Assembly (NCBI GenBank): GCA_017468215.1
Contig: JAFUJG010000330.1
Coordinates: 1 to 5,978 of the forward strand
Direction: 5' to 3'
Length of the DNA stretch: 5,978 nucleotides
DNA from: Clostridia bacterium
Lineage (GTDB): Bacteria > Bacillota > Clostridia > UMGS1883
The first letter of the stretch is position 1, and each line of letters opens with the position of its first letter. Below are positions 1-5,978 of the stretch, in pieces. The translations under genes were made by a program, and so were the position numbers. The notes beneath the pieces were generated by a model. That model was not told where the DNA came from and did not search any database. It saw only the letters and a list, made by a program, of their open reading frames with translations.

Positions 1-3000
1 AAACCCTGTTCCCGGCATTGCTTACAGTATTTATAAAGTTGCTTGCCGCATTCCTTGCACCTGTTCTAAATCCGTTACCAAGTACAGGCTTGCTTGCATC
101 CTTTGCAGACAAATCAACATTGTCATAAAATCTGCTGTACAGAAAATCACTTTTACTAATGTGCTCATTCCAACCACCGAAAACATAACTAAGCCCACTG
201 CTTCCGCCCTCGGATGCAAGCTCCTGGGCAATAACCGCAAGCCCTCTGGTCCATACCGAGAAATTGGAAAATGGTGTTCTTATGTTCCAGCTTATCTGGT
301 TTCGTCCGATATTACCCATGCCCTTACGCCATATTTTAGAAGCACGCCTGCCAATAAGGTTCTGCACCATTCTGTCAACACTATGTTGCTTGCCTGCCAT
401 CTGATTGCCCCACTCACGAAGCCATAACACAAAGTTCGACAGCGCATAAGGATTATTGCTATCCTTGCTGTACTTTTCTCTTATATGGTTTTCAGCCATT
501 CTCGCCTTTGTGATGTCGCTCGTATGATAAATGTACTGCAACGCCGCATTTATGTAAACATCCGCACCGAATATTGCATCACTATCTGTCTTGTTGCCTG
601 TTCTTTCGTTAAAGTACGGATTATACTTGCTGTTCGGTCTGAAGCTTTCCGTCAAACCGTTTATTGCCGTCGGGAGCTGGACAATGAACAAGTTTCCAAG
701 CTCTGTTATAGCATCATCCTTCTCAAAGTGAGGGAAATAATCCATCTCAACCTTACCGCTTCTCGGGTTGTACTTCTTACCTCTCTGCACCAGATTCCAC
801 GCCTGCTGCAATATCGGAACTCTGTCTTTAGCAATCCACCTGCTCTCGCTCCACTTTACGTATCTTGTAAACTGTGCACCATGGTCTGCTAATGCCTGCA
901 CAATACCCTCGTTAAGGTTAAAGCTCTTTGCCGCCTCAGCAACACCCACGGTCTTTATCTTAGCTTTAACCTCCGCAAGGTGCTCCTGCACCCATCTTGC
1001 GTTATCGAGCATATATCTGAATGACCGTCTTTCACTTTCTGTAAGGGTTAACGGAGGTGCCACAAACTCACCTTTGCCTTCAATAAACCTTCTGCGGTTC
1101 GCTTCTTCAAGCAGTGGCTTATAAACCTGTTCCGTCATCACCTTTGCAGCATTAACAACCTTTTCTCTTTTATCAAACGGAATATCAAGCTCAGTAATCC
1201 TGCCCTCACCATAGTCCTGTATAAGTGCACTTTCTTCGCTGCCTGCCTTAATACCCAAATCCTTAACAATCTGCCTGTACTCTTTTGCCGCTTGCTTTAA
1301 GCGAGCCTCGTTGGCATCCTTACCTCTGATAAGTATATCCTTCAACTTATCGCTAAGCAGGATAAAGTAATCATCCTTCTTATCTCCTGTTACACCATGC
1401 CTTCCTGTATCCCGAAGGTCATTTATTCTGCATATCTTATCAATAATCCTCTCGGGAGTATCAGTCTGCATATTGACATGGTTTATCTCCCTCATCTGCC
1501 CGGAATAATAGAACAAATGCTTCAACACATCATTAAACAGCTGCTTATGTCGCCTCTTAAGCTTTTCAGGGCTTGCAGTAACCTTTTTATACAGTTCACT
1601 GAGTTCTCTTATCTTCTCACGGTCCTCAGCATTTCTCCACTTCTCGCCCAGCTCTCCTTCTGTCAACTCACCCTCACTTAAAAGATGTGCCGCCATAACC
1701 ATGTTCCTTGTCATGTTGTTAGCGTTCATGTAATCGTCTGCTTCTCTTGCCGCCCTCTGGCTGTCTGCAACCTCAAGCCTTTCTGCATCTAATTCAGCAG
1801 CAGTATGGAAGCAGAAGTCACCTGTCACGCCACGCTCATTTGCCTTGGTAAAGTGCGGCAAAATCCACTCAAAAAACCTCAGTTGTTCCGCACGGTACTC
1901 GTCCTCGAGTGTAACCTTCTGAACGTCATCTGTTTCTGCATCAATCGCATCAGCCATCTCATTCAAGCGTGCAACCGTCGCCGTCACATTCGCCTGGCTC
2001 ACAGGCTCCCTTGTGTAAAGGGAACTGTCAGCTTCGCTAACTGAGGGATTGTTCTGAGTTGCTTCCTCTCTCGCTCTTTCAACCTCACTAATGGCACCAA
2101 CCGCACCTCTTTCAGCCTGGTCAATCAGCTCTGTTACATTACCTATGTTAAGCATCGGAGCCTTGTCTTTATTCCTGAGTTTTTCTCTTGCCTCTTTTAT
2201 CGCAAGCAATCTGTCCTGTACACTGTCAGCCTCTGCAAGCTGTGCTCCCATGTTAACAAGCTCCTCGTACATAACATCAACGCCAAGGCCTTCCGTTCTG
2301 CTCCAGCCTCCAACACCGAATATGCTTGACAATTCCCTCGCCGTCAAATCCTGACTGTCCTCTTTTGTCACCAATACCTTGCTACCGCTATTTCTCATGC
2401 CCTTAAAGTATTGGCTCAACACATCATCGCTTGCGTCAGCCTCTCCGTAGTAAATCATGTCGTTCTTAAGTATGGAATCACGCAGCTTCTCTCTCCATGC
2501 TTTCGCTTTCGTCTCATCGCCACGAGCTACGCTGTCAGCCAAGCCCTGCATCGCCTGCACAGTTTCATCGCTTATCTTAACGCCGAGCTTTTCTTCAATG
2601 CTCGCCTGCATTTCTTTGTAAAGCTTGTACGTCCTGTCCTCATACTGTGCCTCACTCTTAGGCACAGGCATGGAGAATTTAACTTTTCTCGACAAATTAT
2701 CCCCCTTGACATCAGCGTCTCCCTGTGATACAGTATCTATAGAAGAAGCTGTACTACTGAGCGTTTCGGACGTGGAGAGCGGGGATTTTGCATCGCTTGC
2801 AGTAGCAAGGCTTCTTTTTCTTTTGTACATTGTTTGTACCGTAACATCCCGATGCTTTCTTGATACATATGTCGCTACAAAGATTTTGCCGTCAATTAAC
2901 TTTTCAAAATAAATCAACGGCTTTCCCTCGTATAACTTGTCTGATAAAACAACATTATCGGGACTTGTAATGACTAATGGTATTTTCTTTAAATCTTCAA

Positions 3001-5978
3001 TAGTGATTGCTTCCTGTCCTCTGGTTGCCTCTTTTGTAACATCGCCATGCGAATATAAAAGAATTTTTCTGATTTCAGAAGCTCTGAGAACTATGTTATA
3101 ACCATCTATATCAACACCTGTTTTGTCAAATATCATTTTTGAAACATCAGTCCGCACCTTACCAAAATACATTTTTTTGTTTGTATTTTGATTATTTAAA
3201 GCATCTAACACGAATTTATTGAACTGCTCATCGTTTTCGTAAACAACTATTGTATTACTCTTTTCCCAGTTTTTCTTTTCGTGCGCTGTATAAGGCACTG
3301 CCCCACTGTCAACTGCCTCCTTGGCAGTTTTTTTACTGTCTTCCACTCTATCTGAATTGGACTCACTATAATCCGCAAAAACAGTGTTTTCATCCCCTCT
3401 CGCAGGCATACTGTTCCTGCGTGCTTCCGCTGTCATATTCACTCGCTTAGATGCATCTCTCGCCTCAATCTCGCCCGCAGTATTTATATAAAGTTCTTCT
3501 GCTGTCCTTCTGTTCCGATACATATCTTCAAGCTCGCTATTTACCTTGAGTATTTCCTTACGTAGTTCATACAGCTCCGAAGAATGTTCCTTCACATACT
3601 CGTTCGTCATTTTTTCATAATCTTCAATTGTTATCTCTCCTCGCTCCAACTTAGAAAGCAACTCATTAAAGTAATCGGAAAAACCAATAGCTTCATACAG
3701 AGGGTTAGCTTTGCTATACAATTCATCACGTTGCTGTTCAAGCATTTTCGTGTGTTCCTTATTGCTTTTAAATTGTTTGGAATACCTTTCTTCCCAATAC
3801 TCCTCACTTGAACCATTTGCAAAGCCTTCTTTTTCTTGAATCCAATGCTGGATTTCATGGATCAGGCTTCTTTTGTATTTATCAACATTTTCTCTTTCTG
3901 CCAAACTTATCTTTTTTGTTTTTAGAGAGAAAGAACTTCGTCTTATGTTTTCATCAAACATCACTTCAACATCTCTTAACTCAGGATACGCTTCATACAG
4001 CTTATCATGCTGAAAATACGCCGCAAGCCTGTTTTGAACATTTGCACCATCGCCCTCCTTACCATTTTCTCGGAAAGTATCCTTCCACGTTTTGCGCAGG
4101 TTGCTGTATTCTTTACTCTCCTCTGCAGTCAGTTTTCGTCCTCCGGGTAAACCGAGTGTATACTTTTCTTGTATATCAAAAAGCTCACGGTATCTTGCAT
4201 AATCGGGATGCTCTTTTTTAAACACCAAATCCCCTCTGCGTGAAAATTCTGCATCCTCGTCACTTATTTCAAATCTCCACTTACCGTCAACACCTCTATA
4301 CCAGCCTGTCTCACGGAGTGTTTCTTCTGCACTTACACCGCTTCGCTCCATCATTTCAGCACGTTCAAGTGCACTCATGTCCGCAGTTTCTGCTCTCGGG
4401 CCAGCAAAGGAAAATTTAACTCCTTCACCCGACAAATTATCCCCCTTGACATTCGCTTCTCCCTGTGATAAACTGGCTTTGGAAGCAAGGGTGATGTCTC
4501 GGCTCTCACCGATGGAAACATCGGTCATCCGAGAGGTGGTAGCCTTTGTTTCTTTTTTTGTATCAACTTTGCTACCATCCCATAAAACTACTCTAAGGCT
4601 CTTATATCTATACCCTTTAATTACTTTCAATGTTATTCCAACATTACACCTTTGCTCGTCTAAGATAATCGGAGCTCCTATCGTAACTGTTCGCATATTT
4701 CTGTTTTTGTGGTCTATATGTTCACCTATTACAATTCCTCTTTTCAACGCCCTATGAATTGCAAAGTAAGCAGAATATTCAGCATCATTATTCACATAAT
4801 CTAAACCTCTGTTTATGTCATCTTCGATAAGGTTAATAACACCAAACCCTTGTTTGTCTATAACCATTCCCTTGGACTTTATATCCTGCAATACTTCTGA
4901 TACAATCTGTGCCTTTGTCTTATTTCCCATTCTGCGCAACGATATACTTACAATGGGTTCCATAGCATTTAACACATCAAGATTGGCTCTTATCTGTTCT
5001 TTAATACTCTGTTCCTCGCCGTCTGTAGCTGAAAATTTCACCTCACCATCTGCCCTCGAGGCAGTTTTTTTATTGCCTACTTCATGATAAGCCTTCACAA
5101 GTGCCTGGTGAACAGCCTTCGCATCGTTGATATACTGCAAAGCCTTGCCCGCCTCATAGGTTCCACGCATTTTTCTTACAGCTGTAGTGAGCTTTATAAT
5201 AACGCTCCTCACCGCTTCTGCAATAGCTTTTATCTTGCTTTTCTTAACATCAACCGCTTCTTCCCCCTGCATTATTGCATTAATAAGGCTCTGGCTGTAT
5301 TCGGTATTTATAAACATATCACCTGCAACATCTGCTGCAAATTCTTCAAACATTGCATCCTTATCAAAGCTCTTATATGCACCTTCGTAACGGCTCTCAT
5401 AATCCGCTTCCACTTCTCGGGAAAATCTTATGTCGAACTGTTCCTTTACCACCTTTGCAAAATCGGCGTAGGCTTCAGGGCTTGTGTTCTTAAGCACGTG
5501 CACAAATTCATGACCAAGTGTCTTCTTCACAGGGTCAACGCCGTTAATGTTTATGTAAATGTCCGTACCAATTGTGGCACCATCAGCCACCTTTGTACCA
5601 TCCTCAGCCTTAGCATCTGCCGCACTGAAAAACTTCACATGAAAGCCTTCATCCGCAAGAGTTTTTACAAAACGTATGTCGGCAAGCTTCTCATCAGCAA
5701 GCTTCTTCGTTTCTTTCCAGTCCTGTTTTTCATTGCTGAGGGCAGCTCTGCCTCTGGGCTCTGCTGCGTTAATAGCCCTCAGCTCTGCATCGGCAATCCT
5801 TACAGCCTCGTCAGCTGTCATAACCTCAGCAGTAGGTATGTGAGCACGCAGTACATCATCGTCAGTCTTCGCTGTCTGTAATGCACGTACCTTCTGTATC
5901 CTGTCAATCTCGCCCTGGATTTCGTTCTTTACACTTTCGTCCTCCGTCCTTGCCTTTGTAGACTCAAGGTCACTTACA
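1..5978 (-). CDS. Giant phage-type polyvalent protein, partial at both ends
   Basis: One reading frame stays open across the whole window on the minus strand, codons 5977 down to 2, giving 1,992 residues without a stop. Neither start nor stop codon is inside, so the full protein is longer. The order seen is: helical N-terminal part, HEFVH zincin (residues about 93-232), unnamed alpha/beta module (313-472), LPD23-like module with HEIQH (520-872), PBECR-like nuclease (905-1052), uncharacterised module (1099-1300), helical stretch, and a large YFPHF-containing C-terminal domain (1533-1992). Such domain strings are known from polyvalent proteins of phages and conjugative elements, which are thought to be delivered with the DNA and to act on the host or on rival elements. 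No signal peptide or membrane segment is visible. Only three cysteines occur in 1,992 residues. No neighbouring gene is visible, so operon context is unknown. The open frame and strand are certain; the overall role is inferred from module families. Confidence 0.95.
2..1381 (-). other. Large C-terminal YFPHF domain, running off the window (residues 1533-1992)
   Basis: A helical entry (LIQDYGEGRITELD, EKVVNAAKVMTEQVYKPLLEE) leads to the signature DYFPHFE at residues 1746-1752. Then come LPTAINGLTESFRP, RTGNKTDSDAIFGADVY, LQYIYHTSDITKARM, ALSNFVLWLREWGNQMAGKQ and NISWNIRT-like sequence (NQISWNIRTPFSNFS), ending near TVSNAGNRV at the window edge. I recognise this succession (YFPHF, then LPTxINGLT, IYHTxDI, GK, NxxSxxxNF) from the C-terminal halves of giant phage proteins in gut Clostridia, but know no assigned biochemical function. 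No transmembrane segment or classical nucleotide-binding loop is visible. The segment is continuous with the rest and has no stop, so the protein extends beyond position 1. Confidence 0.65.
1382..2077 (-). other. Long helical, acidic connecting region (residues 1301-1532)
   Basis: This is predicted to be mostly helix, rich in Glu, Ala, Arg and Asp, with examples such as VARLNEMADAIDAE, AAELDAERLEVADSQRAAREA and EKIRELSELYKKV. A small internal repetition, EGELTEGELGE, lies near 1633-1665. Two of the protein's three cysteines are here (GDFCFH and DKICRI). The second half (NNMTRNMVMAAHLL, HKQLFNDVLKHLFYYSGQM) probably already belongs to the C-terminal YFPHF domain family, so the boundary is approximate. 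No enzymatic motif is recognised. Confidence 0.5.
2078..2683 (-). other. Uncharacterised module after third VKFS (residues 1099-1300)
   Basis: The first part is helical (EDRTYKLYKEMQASIEEKLG, DETVQAMQGLADSVARGDE). Then come a short strand and turn with SKVLVTKEDSQDLTARELSSI, FGVGGWSRTEGLGVDVMYEEL, and a closing helix AEADSVQDRLLAIKEAREKLR. The pattern of aromatic, glycine-rich turn, then G-x-x-V-D-x-x-Y-x-E-L and a helix is one I recall from the same position in other large phage proteins of Clostridia, just ahead of the C-terminal domain. I cannot name it or give it a function. No catalytic motif is obvious. Confidence 0.5.
2691..2730 (-). repeat. Direct repeat in linker, copy 2 (residues about 1083-1095)
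   Basis: This is the partner of 4431-4470, same orientation, three mismatches in 40 bases. It encodes VSQGDADVKGDNL and is followed by SRKVKFS, with the third VKFS at residues 1099-1102. It is preceded by a Ser/Thr/Ala-rich disordered linker (SPLSTSETLSSTASSIDT). The distance to copy 1 is exactly 1,740 bases, or 580 codons, so recombination between the copies would remove the HEIQH and nuclease modules without shifting the frame. Confidence 0.9.
2822..3265 (-). other. PBECR-type (barnase/EndoU/colicin/RelE-like) nuclease module (residues 905-1052)
   Basis: The module has the features of the phage barnase-EndoU-ColicinE5/D-RelE-like nucleases. These include KKMYFGKV, then a helix-strand unit TGVDIDGYNIVLRASEIRKI, the motif HGD at residues 977-979, TRGQEAITIEDLKKIP, VITSPDNVVLS, the strand pair GKPLIYFEKLIDGKIFVATYVS, and the closing VQTMYK. 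From memory it is closest to PBECR3, but I am not sure of the subtype. Candidate catalytic residues are H977, D979, R986 and the terminal Thr/Tyr of QTMY. The known family role is predicted RNA cleavage acting as a toxin or effector. The cellular RNA target is unknown. It is flanked by hydrophilic linkers on both sides. No dedicated immunity gene is visible in the window. The segment is among the most AT-rich here. Confidence 0.75.
3311..3334 (+). terminator. Terminator-like hairpin on the antisense strand, inside the gene
   Basis: Seen directly: a perfect 7-base stem AACTGCC / GGCAGTT (3311-3317 and 3323-3329) with a 5-base loop, followed by a run of T to 3334. This is the form of an intrinsic terminator for + strand (antisense) transcription. 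It lies in the linker between the LPD23-like and nuclease modules, where the gene encodes KKTAKEA, so the T run is also simply the complement of Lys codons. It would not stop transcription of the gene itself. Function is doubtful. Confidence 0.3.
3362..4420 (-). other. LPD23-like module with zincin motif HEIQH (residues 520-872)
   Basis: The module opens with the second VKFS (520-523). ERAEMMERSGVSAEE and TGWYRGVDGKWRFEISD follow, a TGWxxGxDGKWRxEI pattern typical of LPD23 proteins. Next come KLYEAYPELRDVEVMFDE and then LIHEIQHWIQEKEGF, with HEIQH at residues 707-711 (3845-3859). A long charged helical segment leads to TAGEIEARD at 833-841. HEIQH followed by a Glu in an AGExEAR motif suggests a second zinc metallopeptidase site, with the AGE glutamate as candidate third ligand. 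The module ends with MPARGDENTVFADYSE, also usual for this family. The family resemblance is strong. Catalysis is inferred, since I know of no biochemical proof for this family. The segment is AT-richer than the gene's ends. Confidence 0.8.
4431..4470 (-). repeat. Direct repeat in linker, copy 1 (residues about 503-515)
   Basis: This 40-base segment matches 2691-2730 with three mismatches (counted by eye). Both copies are in the same orientation and the same reading frame. It encodes LSQGEANVKGDNL, against VSQGDADVKGDNL in the other copy. On its low-coordinate side both copies continue, after a three-base length difference, into the VKFS motif. The repeat sits in a hydrophilic linker between two folded modules, so it looks like a module-joining sequence rather than part of a domain. 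Confidence 0.9.
4562..5041 (-). other. Unnamed alpha/beta module recurrent in polyvalent proteins (residues 313-472)
   Basis: The module starts right after the VKFS junction. It has a helical half (INLIEDDINRGLDYV, EYSAYFAIHRALKRG) and then a strand-rich half: GEHIDHKNRNMRTVTIGAPI, ILDEQRCNVGITLKV, YRYKSLRVVLWDGS. From memory of phage proteins of Clostridia, the pattern G-I-x-I-x-x-H-x-x-H-K-x-R-x-x-x-T-V-T followed by APxxxxxxxxNVxxxxK and a final LxxDGS is a recurrent module. I cannot give it a family number. The architecture, with helices then a meander of strands carrying His, Lys and Arg, resembles small RNase-fold (barnase/EndoU/RelE-like) domains, so a nuclease role is possible but unproven. 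One of the protein's three cysteines is here (RCN). Confidence 0.55.
5042..5281 (-). other. Helical spacer ending at first VKFS junction (residues 233-312)
   Basis: After the peptidase comes a Lys-, Ala- and Ile-rich helical stretch (KKSKIKAIAEAVRSVIIKL and following), then a short hydrophilic linker with KKTASRADGE that runs into the first VKFS motif at residues 313-316. It may be the C-terminal helical part of the peptidase domain, because helices following the third zinc ligand are usual in zincins. No separate function is recognisable. Confidence 0.5.
5050..5071 (+). terminator. Second terminator-like hairpin on the antisense strand
   Basis: The stem CTGCC / GGCAG (5050-5054 and 5060-5064) with a 5-base loop is followed by seven T (5065-5071) on the + strand. 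The gene strand here encodes KKTASRA, parallel to KKTAKEA at the other hairpin. Shorter and weaker than the one at 3311-3334. It is probably a by-product of shared linker codons, though both hairpins sit at module junctions. Confidence 0.22.
5282..5701 (-). other. Zincin-like metallopeptidase domain with HEFVH (residues 93-232)
   Basis: The segment has the layout of a zinc metallopeptidase. A strand-rich part (around residues 112-145, ending GTDIYININGVD) is followed by the helix TLGHEFVHVLKN, with HEFVH at residues 156-160 (5498-5512). The two His are expected zinc ligands and the Glu the catalytic base. About 50 residues on comes EEFAADVAGDMF, where E211 or E212 is the likely third ligand, as in gluzincin-type HExxH...E(x)FxAD arrangements. 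This is seen in sequence; peptidase activity is inferred from the family. The substrate is unknown: it could be a host protein or the polyprotein itself. Similar HExxH domains sit near the front of polyvalent proteins of gut Firmicutes phages. All candidate ligands are intact, so this copy looks active. Confidence 0.8.
5693..5977 (-). other. Helical, charged lead-in of the polyvalent protein (residues 1-95)
   Basis: This stretch is rich in Asp, Glu, Lys, Arg and Ala and should be mostly helical, with segments such as VRIADAELRAI and WKETKKLADEKLADIRF. I recognise no domain. It directly precedes the HEFVH peptidase and may be the end of another module that lies upstream, outside the window. 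No start codon with a ribosome binding site is apparent, and the frame is open to the window edge, so the internal Met near 5819-5821 is not proposed as the start. Confidence 0.6.

Follow-up and report, generated by a model that had tools for sequence, protein, structure and literature searches.

In polymorphic toxin systems, orphan immunity genes are kept and stacked without their toxin. In type III toxin-antitoxin systems the antitoxin RNA precedes the toxin gene on the same strand and is often repetitive. In the type I system txpA/RatA, a small antisense RNA overlaps a prophage toxin gene at its 3' end. Another such RNA is SR6 of the Bacillus subtilis prophage SPbeta, a 100-nt antisense RNA over the 3' end of the toxin gene yonT (PMC5848175). 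Iyer et al. described polyvalent proteins in 2017, together with PBECR RNases, mosaicism and likely zincin processing (PMC5512222). How a cell that makes such proteins withstands their toxic domains is a puzzle, which an antidote RNA encoded antisense within the effector module would solve. In a word search, the main text of Iyer et al. contains neither 'antisense', 'noncoding' nor 'linker' (0 occurrences each), and its passages on these proteins do not describe nested RNA genes (PMC5512222); the same kind of search in the MuF toxin paper (PMC5576092) finds 'antisense' 0 times. Among the best-matching open-licence PMC papers listed on these topics, no title or abstract opening describes nested RNA genes.

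The window analyzed here is one whole draft-genome contig of 5978 bases from a Clostridia bacterium. Its sole ORF is a giant frame on the minus strand (2..5977; 1992 aa, open at both ends), likely from a prophage. In order, the frame encodes an HEFVH zincin-like region; an unnamed slot-1 effector domain (residues 321-480, 4538..5017) that belongs to no Pfam family and has homologues in L031, L032, L023, L081 and L082; LPD23 (PF18838, profile match, 4244..4414); a zincin-like region with an HEIQH motif (3809..3976; DUF6782, below cut-off) that is kept in both orthologous scaffolds; the slot-2 effector PBECR3, a predicted RNase (PF18812, 2810..3139; profile match of 57 bits against a cut-off of 30); and a long C-terminal scaffold (2..2671), all on the minus strand. 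With several conflict-type domains in a frame of 1992 aa, LPD23 and PBECR3 among them over cut-off, the product is a polyvalent protein. A terminator scan also placed a terminator-like hairpin with a T tract, both of repeat family D4, on the plus strand at the upstream edge of slot 2 (3311..3336) and of slot 1 (5050..5071). In the nearest orthologue, G001 of the same genus, the hairpin DNA at the upstream edge of slot 2 is almost identical to that of the window, and slot 1 has a different hairpin there, with A6 on the coding strand. The upstream-edge hairpins of both slots are possibly backstop terminators for antisense transcription; frameshifting, suggested by A7 plus hairpin at these edges, was considered and set aside as an explanation.

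The original prediction centered on a pair of direct repeats, and the pair is real. Positions 2691..2730 and 4431..4470 match at 37 of 40 bases (three differences), lie in one minus-strand open frame exactly 580 codons apart and in frame, and enclose LPD23, the HEIQH motif and PBECR3. In our scan of the window the repeat family extends over 63 nt at 81% with a spacing of 1740. The copy at 4431..4470 encodes the linker SQGEANVKGDNLS and that at 2691..2730 the linker SQGDADVKGDNLS. Of the 11 residues common to both linkers, 10 are written with identical codons, where the codon usage of the ORF predicts 4.2 (P about 3e-4), so the likeness of the linkers is more than chance. In-frame linker repeats occur in other polyvalent ORFs as well, most clearly in L032 and L031, and the feature therefore recurs; for the orthologue G001, the repeat scan lists no comparable linker pair.

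Comparison of scaffolds shows what is exchanged at these linkers. The G001 protein is 73-74% identical to that of the window at the C-terminus (74% over the C-terminal scaffold). Identity is 54% for the N-terminal region that includes the first zincin and 48% across LPD23 and HEIQH, and neither effector slot of G001 has significant similarity to those of the window. Its contig (G001:C58) encodes portal, terminase, head and endolysin, and a prophage origin is therefore likely. A gene for a phage reverse transcriptase (phrog_1423; L030 17551-18798), possibly part of a diversity-generating retroelement, lies in the same prophage. The sequence P0002, which closely matches the G001 frame, is listed with LPD23, PF18760 and PF18798, the last two of which we take to be ART-PolyVal and LPD3. 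A third pair of slot fillings is found on the same scaffold in the database protein P0001 (PF18819 listed), in which slot 2 has a distant similarity to PBECR3 (27% over 44 residues, E 1e-4) and slot 1 is similar to no other compared slot. Slots 1 and 2 of the window are alike over the tail only (43% over 44 residues), and scaffold homology restarts at (V/I)(K/R)FS, immediately beyond each repeat. Because the slots differ while the HEIQH module and the scaffold persist, we conclude that single effectors plus their tails are exchanged. The three scaffolds with their unlike fillings thus bear out the proposal that effectors are swapped at the linkers, but not the proposal that the 580-codon cassette is the unit. 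The cassette is rejected in that role, as the HEIQH module is retained in all three and one effector plus tail is what varies; among these three scaffolds, none lacks or duplicates the exact interval.

The repeat has an explanation at the DNA level that the original prediction missed: each copy includes most of a predicted antisense promoter feeding a predicted small RNA. Read antisense to the ORF, both copies match a sigma-A promoter of the form TTGACA-17-TGnTAnnnT with a TG-extended -10. Promoter 1 (4446..4474, plus strand) reads TTGACA-17-TGnTAAACT and promoter 2 (2706..2734, plus strand) TTGACA-17-TGnTACAGT, each matching at 10/12 plus the TG. They are the two best of the 13 promoter-like sites in the window, a count that is itself not unusual against 10.7 expected. 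Some effectors go without: G001 has an antisense promoter in slot 1 only. With identical promoters dropped, the DNA flanking such promoters is more alike within ORFs (0.525, 33 pairs) than between them (0.365, 432 pairs; label permutation P 0.0002), so that copying or exchange of linkers inside one gene remains likely. Two further arrangements were seen. In L021, near residue 1926 of a 3079-aa ORF, TTGACA-16-TGnTATAAT occurs on the sense strand at the upstream edge of G001 slot 2, within a block conserved with the window. The 3770-aa ORF of the viral contig L028 has in-frame blocks repeated 880-911 codons apart with unlike stretches between them, a large duplication within a polyvalent gene.

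If the promoter rather than the peptide is under selection, synonymous sites should tell. The fetched ORFs contain 26 distinct stretches with the amino-acid pattern of the linker, identical linker sequences having been removed before counting. Valine is encoded by GTC in 24 of the 26, from 13 loci, in ORFs in which GTC makes up 4-38% of Val codons; GTC is the codon that TTGAC requires. All 24 GTC linkers carry TTGAC(A/T)-17 with a -10-like hexamer, each with P at most 0.0085 against synonymous recoding, and the two exceptions without GTC are residue 238 of L028+5522 and residue 773 of L077. These results bear directly on a peptide reading of the tail, in which its conservation reflects processing or docking of the protein and the resemblance to a promoter is incidental. 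Such a peptide would suit the zincin processing proposed by Iyer et al. (PMC5512222), as well as the tails of PBECR3 in database proteins, where the x4 spacing is kept in 21 of 26 distinct tails (67 proteins, with matches ending before query residue 140 and repeat tails dropped). It would leave the constraint on synonymous sites without a cause, and LPD3 tails, which are made of other residues (DLFGLVK), bear the same antisense promoter. As the sole explanation a pure peptide motif is contradicted by the synonymous tests, and we give this reading almost no credence.

In the window, each promoter runs straight into an 80-nt hairpin RNA with paired ends and then a T tract. Predicted antisense RNA 1 (family R1, 4481..4559, plus strand) consists of a closing stem, an inner stem and a GNRA-capped hairpin followed by the T tract. 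Predicted antisense RNA 2 (family R2, 2741..2824, plus strand) is a three-way junction with a CGUUUCGGACG hairpin, a short terminator-like hairpin at 2796-2809 in the 3' part and a T tract at its end. Neither matches an Rfam family: Rfam 15 gave no match in the window up to E=1 and, at gathering score, only tRNAs in 16 related loci. Most units elsewhere, with identical promoters dropped, have the same form, with a hairpin of about 50-95 nt after the promoter, paired 5' and 3' ends and an adjoining T tract. In 271,275 bases from 19 loci there are 41 promoter-hairpin-T-tract units, where 40 shuffles gave 0.17 on average. The control loci (148,981 bases) contain one unit; it is the RNA that stands alone in L105, a locus of the control set. 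The fold, stem and strand counts below are for distinct promoters, identical ones having been removed. With the protein held fixed, the mean fold z at 32 antisense promoters is -2.99 relative to synonymous recoding (below -2 in 22/32), and the closing stem has P at most 0.05 in 25/32; at the three sense promoter sites, the corresponding counts are 1/3 for the fold and 0/3 for the stem. In fold energy the PBECR3 RNA of the window ranks with the weaker members of this set (z -1.02, stem P 0.025), and the slot-1 RNA reaches a fold z of -5.54. Across 36 ORFs of 700 aa or more, among which the near-identical viral contigs L023/L024 and L025/L026 remain, 27 units are antisense and 0 sense.

This form of the units also speaks to a role for the repeats or hairpins as DNA sites of effector-cassette exchange, whether as direct repeats or as integron-like folded sites. 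That the variable unit is an effector plus its tail, and that linker DNA is more alike within than between ORFs, would both be expected of such sites. Exchange would leave unexplained a consensus promoter with a 17-bp spacing, a terminal T tract, a GNRA loop and a 27:0 strand bias, and it is a further point against it that none of the three scaffolds compared lacks or repeats the exact 580-codon interval. We therefore consider a recombination site very unlikely to be what the repeats are for.

We then compared the two RNAs with their relatives, using a model of R1 (slot-1 type) built from four sequences and a model of R2 (PBECR3 type) built from three. Against structures drawn from these model-building sequences, to which later alignments were fitted, 99% of cells are paired in the R1 alignment (10 sequences at a cut of E 0.01, the near copy L024 left out) and 16 of 21 pairs have changed on both sides, with 0/500 shuffles doing as well. 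The values for R2 (9 sequences from 9 sources, with weak matches outside the count at a cut of E 1e-5) are 97.3% and 13 of 21, again with 0/500 shuffles, though in further pair types R2 does not exceed its shuffles (255/500). A GNRA loop caps the R1 hairpin in nine of the ten aligned sequences, the tenth, L090, being a short weak match. Strong matches to the R2 model outside its building set include L083, a human-faecal phage record, and the viral contig L029.

R1 and R2 are each met beside one effector family. All R1 matches that overlap an effector ORF (window, L031, L032, L081, L082, L023 and the near copy L024) are at slot-1-type domains, and all five R2 matches above 80 bits with an effector (window, L072, L028, L029 and L083) are at PBECR3. 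Several other polyvalent PBECR3 ORFs match R2 weakly (L074 28.8, L073 22.5, L075 22.1 and L077 16.7 bits), L076 and L079 have none among the R2 matches listed, and G014 contains a second slot-1-type domain (53.8 bits) that R1 does not match; effector and RNA may therefore diverge together. L029 (R2) and L082 (R1) have no recognizable promoter of their own, and L082 lies directly behind another unit. The 19 best-scoring PBECR3 genes (L036-L054) are solo genes of 127-158 aa from 19 genomes, and 0/19 of these genomes had an R2 match under the stricter filters of the R2 genome search.

Copies of the RNAs also stand alone. Within the class, R1 matches 7 of 391 genomes (G063 at 25 bits only) and R2 9 of 391. 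In G305, 2.2 kb of one strand carries seven RNA units (L092 7011-9139, G305:C3), with an ArsC-like gene between units, genes for DUF819, a pyridoxal-phosphate enzyme, a Mur ligase and a topoisomerase around them, and short frames of up to 176 aa on the opposite strand. One of the seven belongs to R1 (90.4 bits), the R2 model matches a partial eighth (22.8 bits), and the array apparently comprises several RNA families. G234 has one R1 RNA, flanked by tRNA-Asp and an ArsC-like gene, and a further R1 copy in G291 lies immediately beyond the end of a polyvalent ORF. R2-type stand-alone RNAs occur in G102 (two loci), G104, G206 and G022. One of those in G102 (L104, G102:C11, 7190-7267) has as a neighbor, at a distance of about 370 bp, a type II-A CRISPR array (7635-8275) with cas9, cas1 and csn2. 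Eight stand-alone copies examined keep their promoters, with 10-12/12 matches in L092, L093 and L104-L108 and 9/12 in L081 at 13113. Searches of loci L092, L093 and L104-L109 with slot-1, PBECR3, LPD3 and HEIQH queries (tblastn) gave no match. At the scale of whole genomes, which here are mostly drafts with some short contigs (G104:C30, 5.9 kb), PBECR3 exceeds the cut-off in 0/6 stand-alone-RNA genomes, with sub-threshold matches elsewhere in G104 (E 2.9e-4) and G102 (E 0.06). A whole-genome search for the slot-1 domain did not find it in G305, G234 or G102 but did in G014 and G291. The stand-alone copies could be prophage remnants. Because related RNA genes sit alone in chromosomes in which no effector was detected, they are likely RNA antidotes.

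The stand-alone copies also weigh on two other roles for the RNA. In the main rival reading, the RNA represses by antisense pairing in the manner of a type I system: it would base-pair with the effector-coding portion of the polyvalent transcript and silence it in lysogens, and stand-alone copies would hit the mRNA of an incoming phage. The predicted RNA does overlap the effector tail on the opposite strand, SR6 over yonT is a precedent in SPbeta (PMC5848175), and the reading is compatible with the data in that cis-encoding makes complementarity to the mRNA automatic and covariation alone is not decisive. On the other side are the preservation of the RNA structure through compensatory changes, the presence of lone copies in genomes in which searches found no effector of this kind, and the fact that a blocker of mRNA is no help to a cell that receives ready-made protein. 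The R1 loop adds to this, since loops that pair with a target RNA are not typically GNRA. Both this loop and the lone copies speak against pairing as the sole role, and we rate it as unlikely, if still a serious contender. A second role, in which the effector binds the RNA as a guide, an activator or packaged cargo and not as an inhibitor, would account for the company that R1 and R2 each keep with one effector family. It is harder to reconcile with RNAs that have no effector beside them and with a hairpin that stops at its T tract with no free guide segment visible, and it appears to us improbable.

We favor an antidote. Each copy of the repeat is probably an antisense housekeeping promoter for a small structured RNA across the effector tail, likely the antidote of that effector. 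Promoter, synonymous-codon constraint, hairpin with T tract, covariation, effector company and stand-alone copies are all read from the DNA; from them we infer transcription of the RNA, its binding to and blocking of the effector, and protection of the cell. A constitutive promoter in each linker, used by the host polymerase, would supply the small RNA in the lysogen and in the phage-producing cell. There it would bind and block its cognate effector (for PBECR3, a predicted RNase) and so protect these cells, and the effector would stay silent until the protein enters a cell free of the RNA. Stand-alone copies would protect their hosts against effectors injected by related phages. Effector, tail and RNA would move as one piece, which would explain why the tails of unlike effectors have 'VSQ-x4-V(N/K)' in common: it is the promoter read backwards. 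More tentatively, and with somewhat less confidence than in the antidote itself, we suggest that phage effectors may print their antidote antisense on their own tail and that gut Clostridia may collect these RNAs as effector-free arrays, a heritable poly-immunity against injected proteins.

If this is true, the nested RNA would let effector and immunity travel together, sequence would offer a test of which hosts resist which effectors, and anti-phage immunity would gain an additional layer built of small RNAs. Nested RNAs could have escaped RNA-discovery work restricted to intergenic DNA. The pattern of promoter, hairpin, T tract and strand bias is sharp enough for a search at scale.

The host gene itself resembles the polyvalent proteins of phages and conjugative elements (PMC5512222) in its giant multidomain ORF, zincin-like regions, PBECR RNase domains and mosaic effectors, and here its orthologue is borne by a prophage. 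The predicted RNAs resemble type I antitoxins such as SR6 of yonT (PMC5848175): they are small, antisense and placed over a toxin 3' end in a prophage of the Firmicutes, and by sequence they overlap the toxin-coding sequence. They differ in that the toxin is no small hydrophobic peptide; the effectors are larger domains in a frame of at least 1992 aa, the RNAs lie inside this one ORF, one per effector, and they are covarying hairpins that also stand alone without a toxin. With type III systems such as ToxIN (PMC5086642) and avcID (PMC10511110), where the toxin is an RNase, they share a structured RNA proposed to neutralize an effector, but the RNA here is antisense, single-copy, located at the C-terminal tail of the effector and provided with its own promoter. 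The effector-free copies are most like orphan immunity genes, as they would be immunity elements held without a toxin and stacked, yet made of RNA and not of protein.
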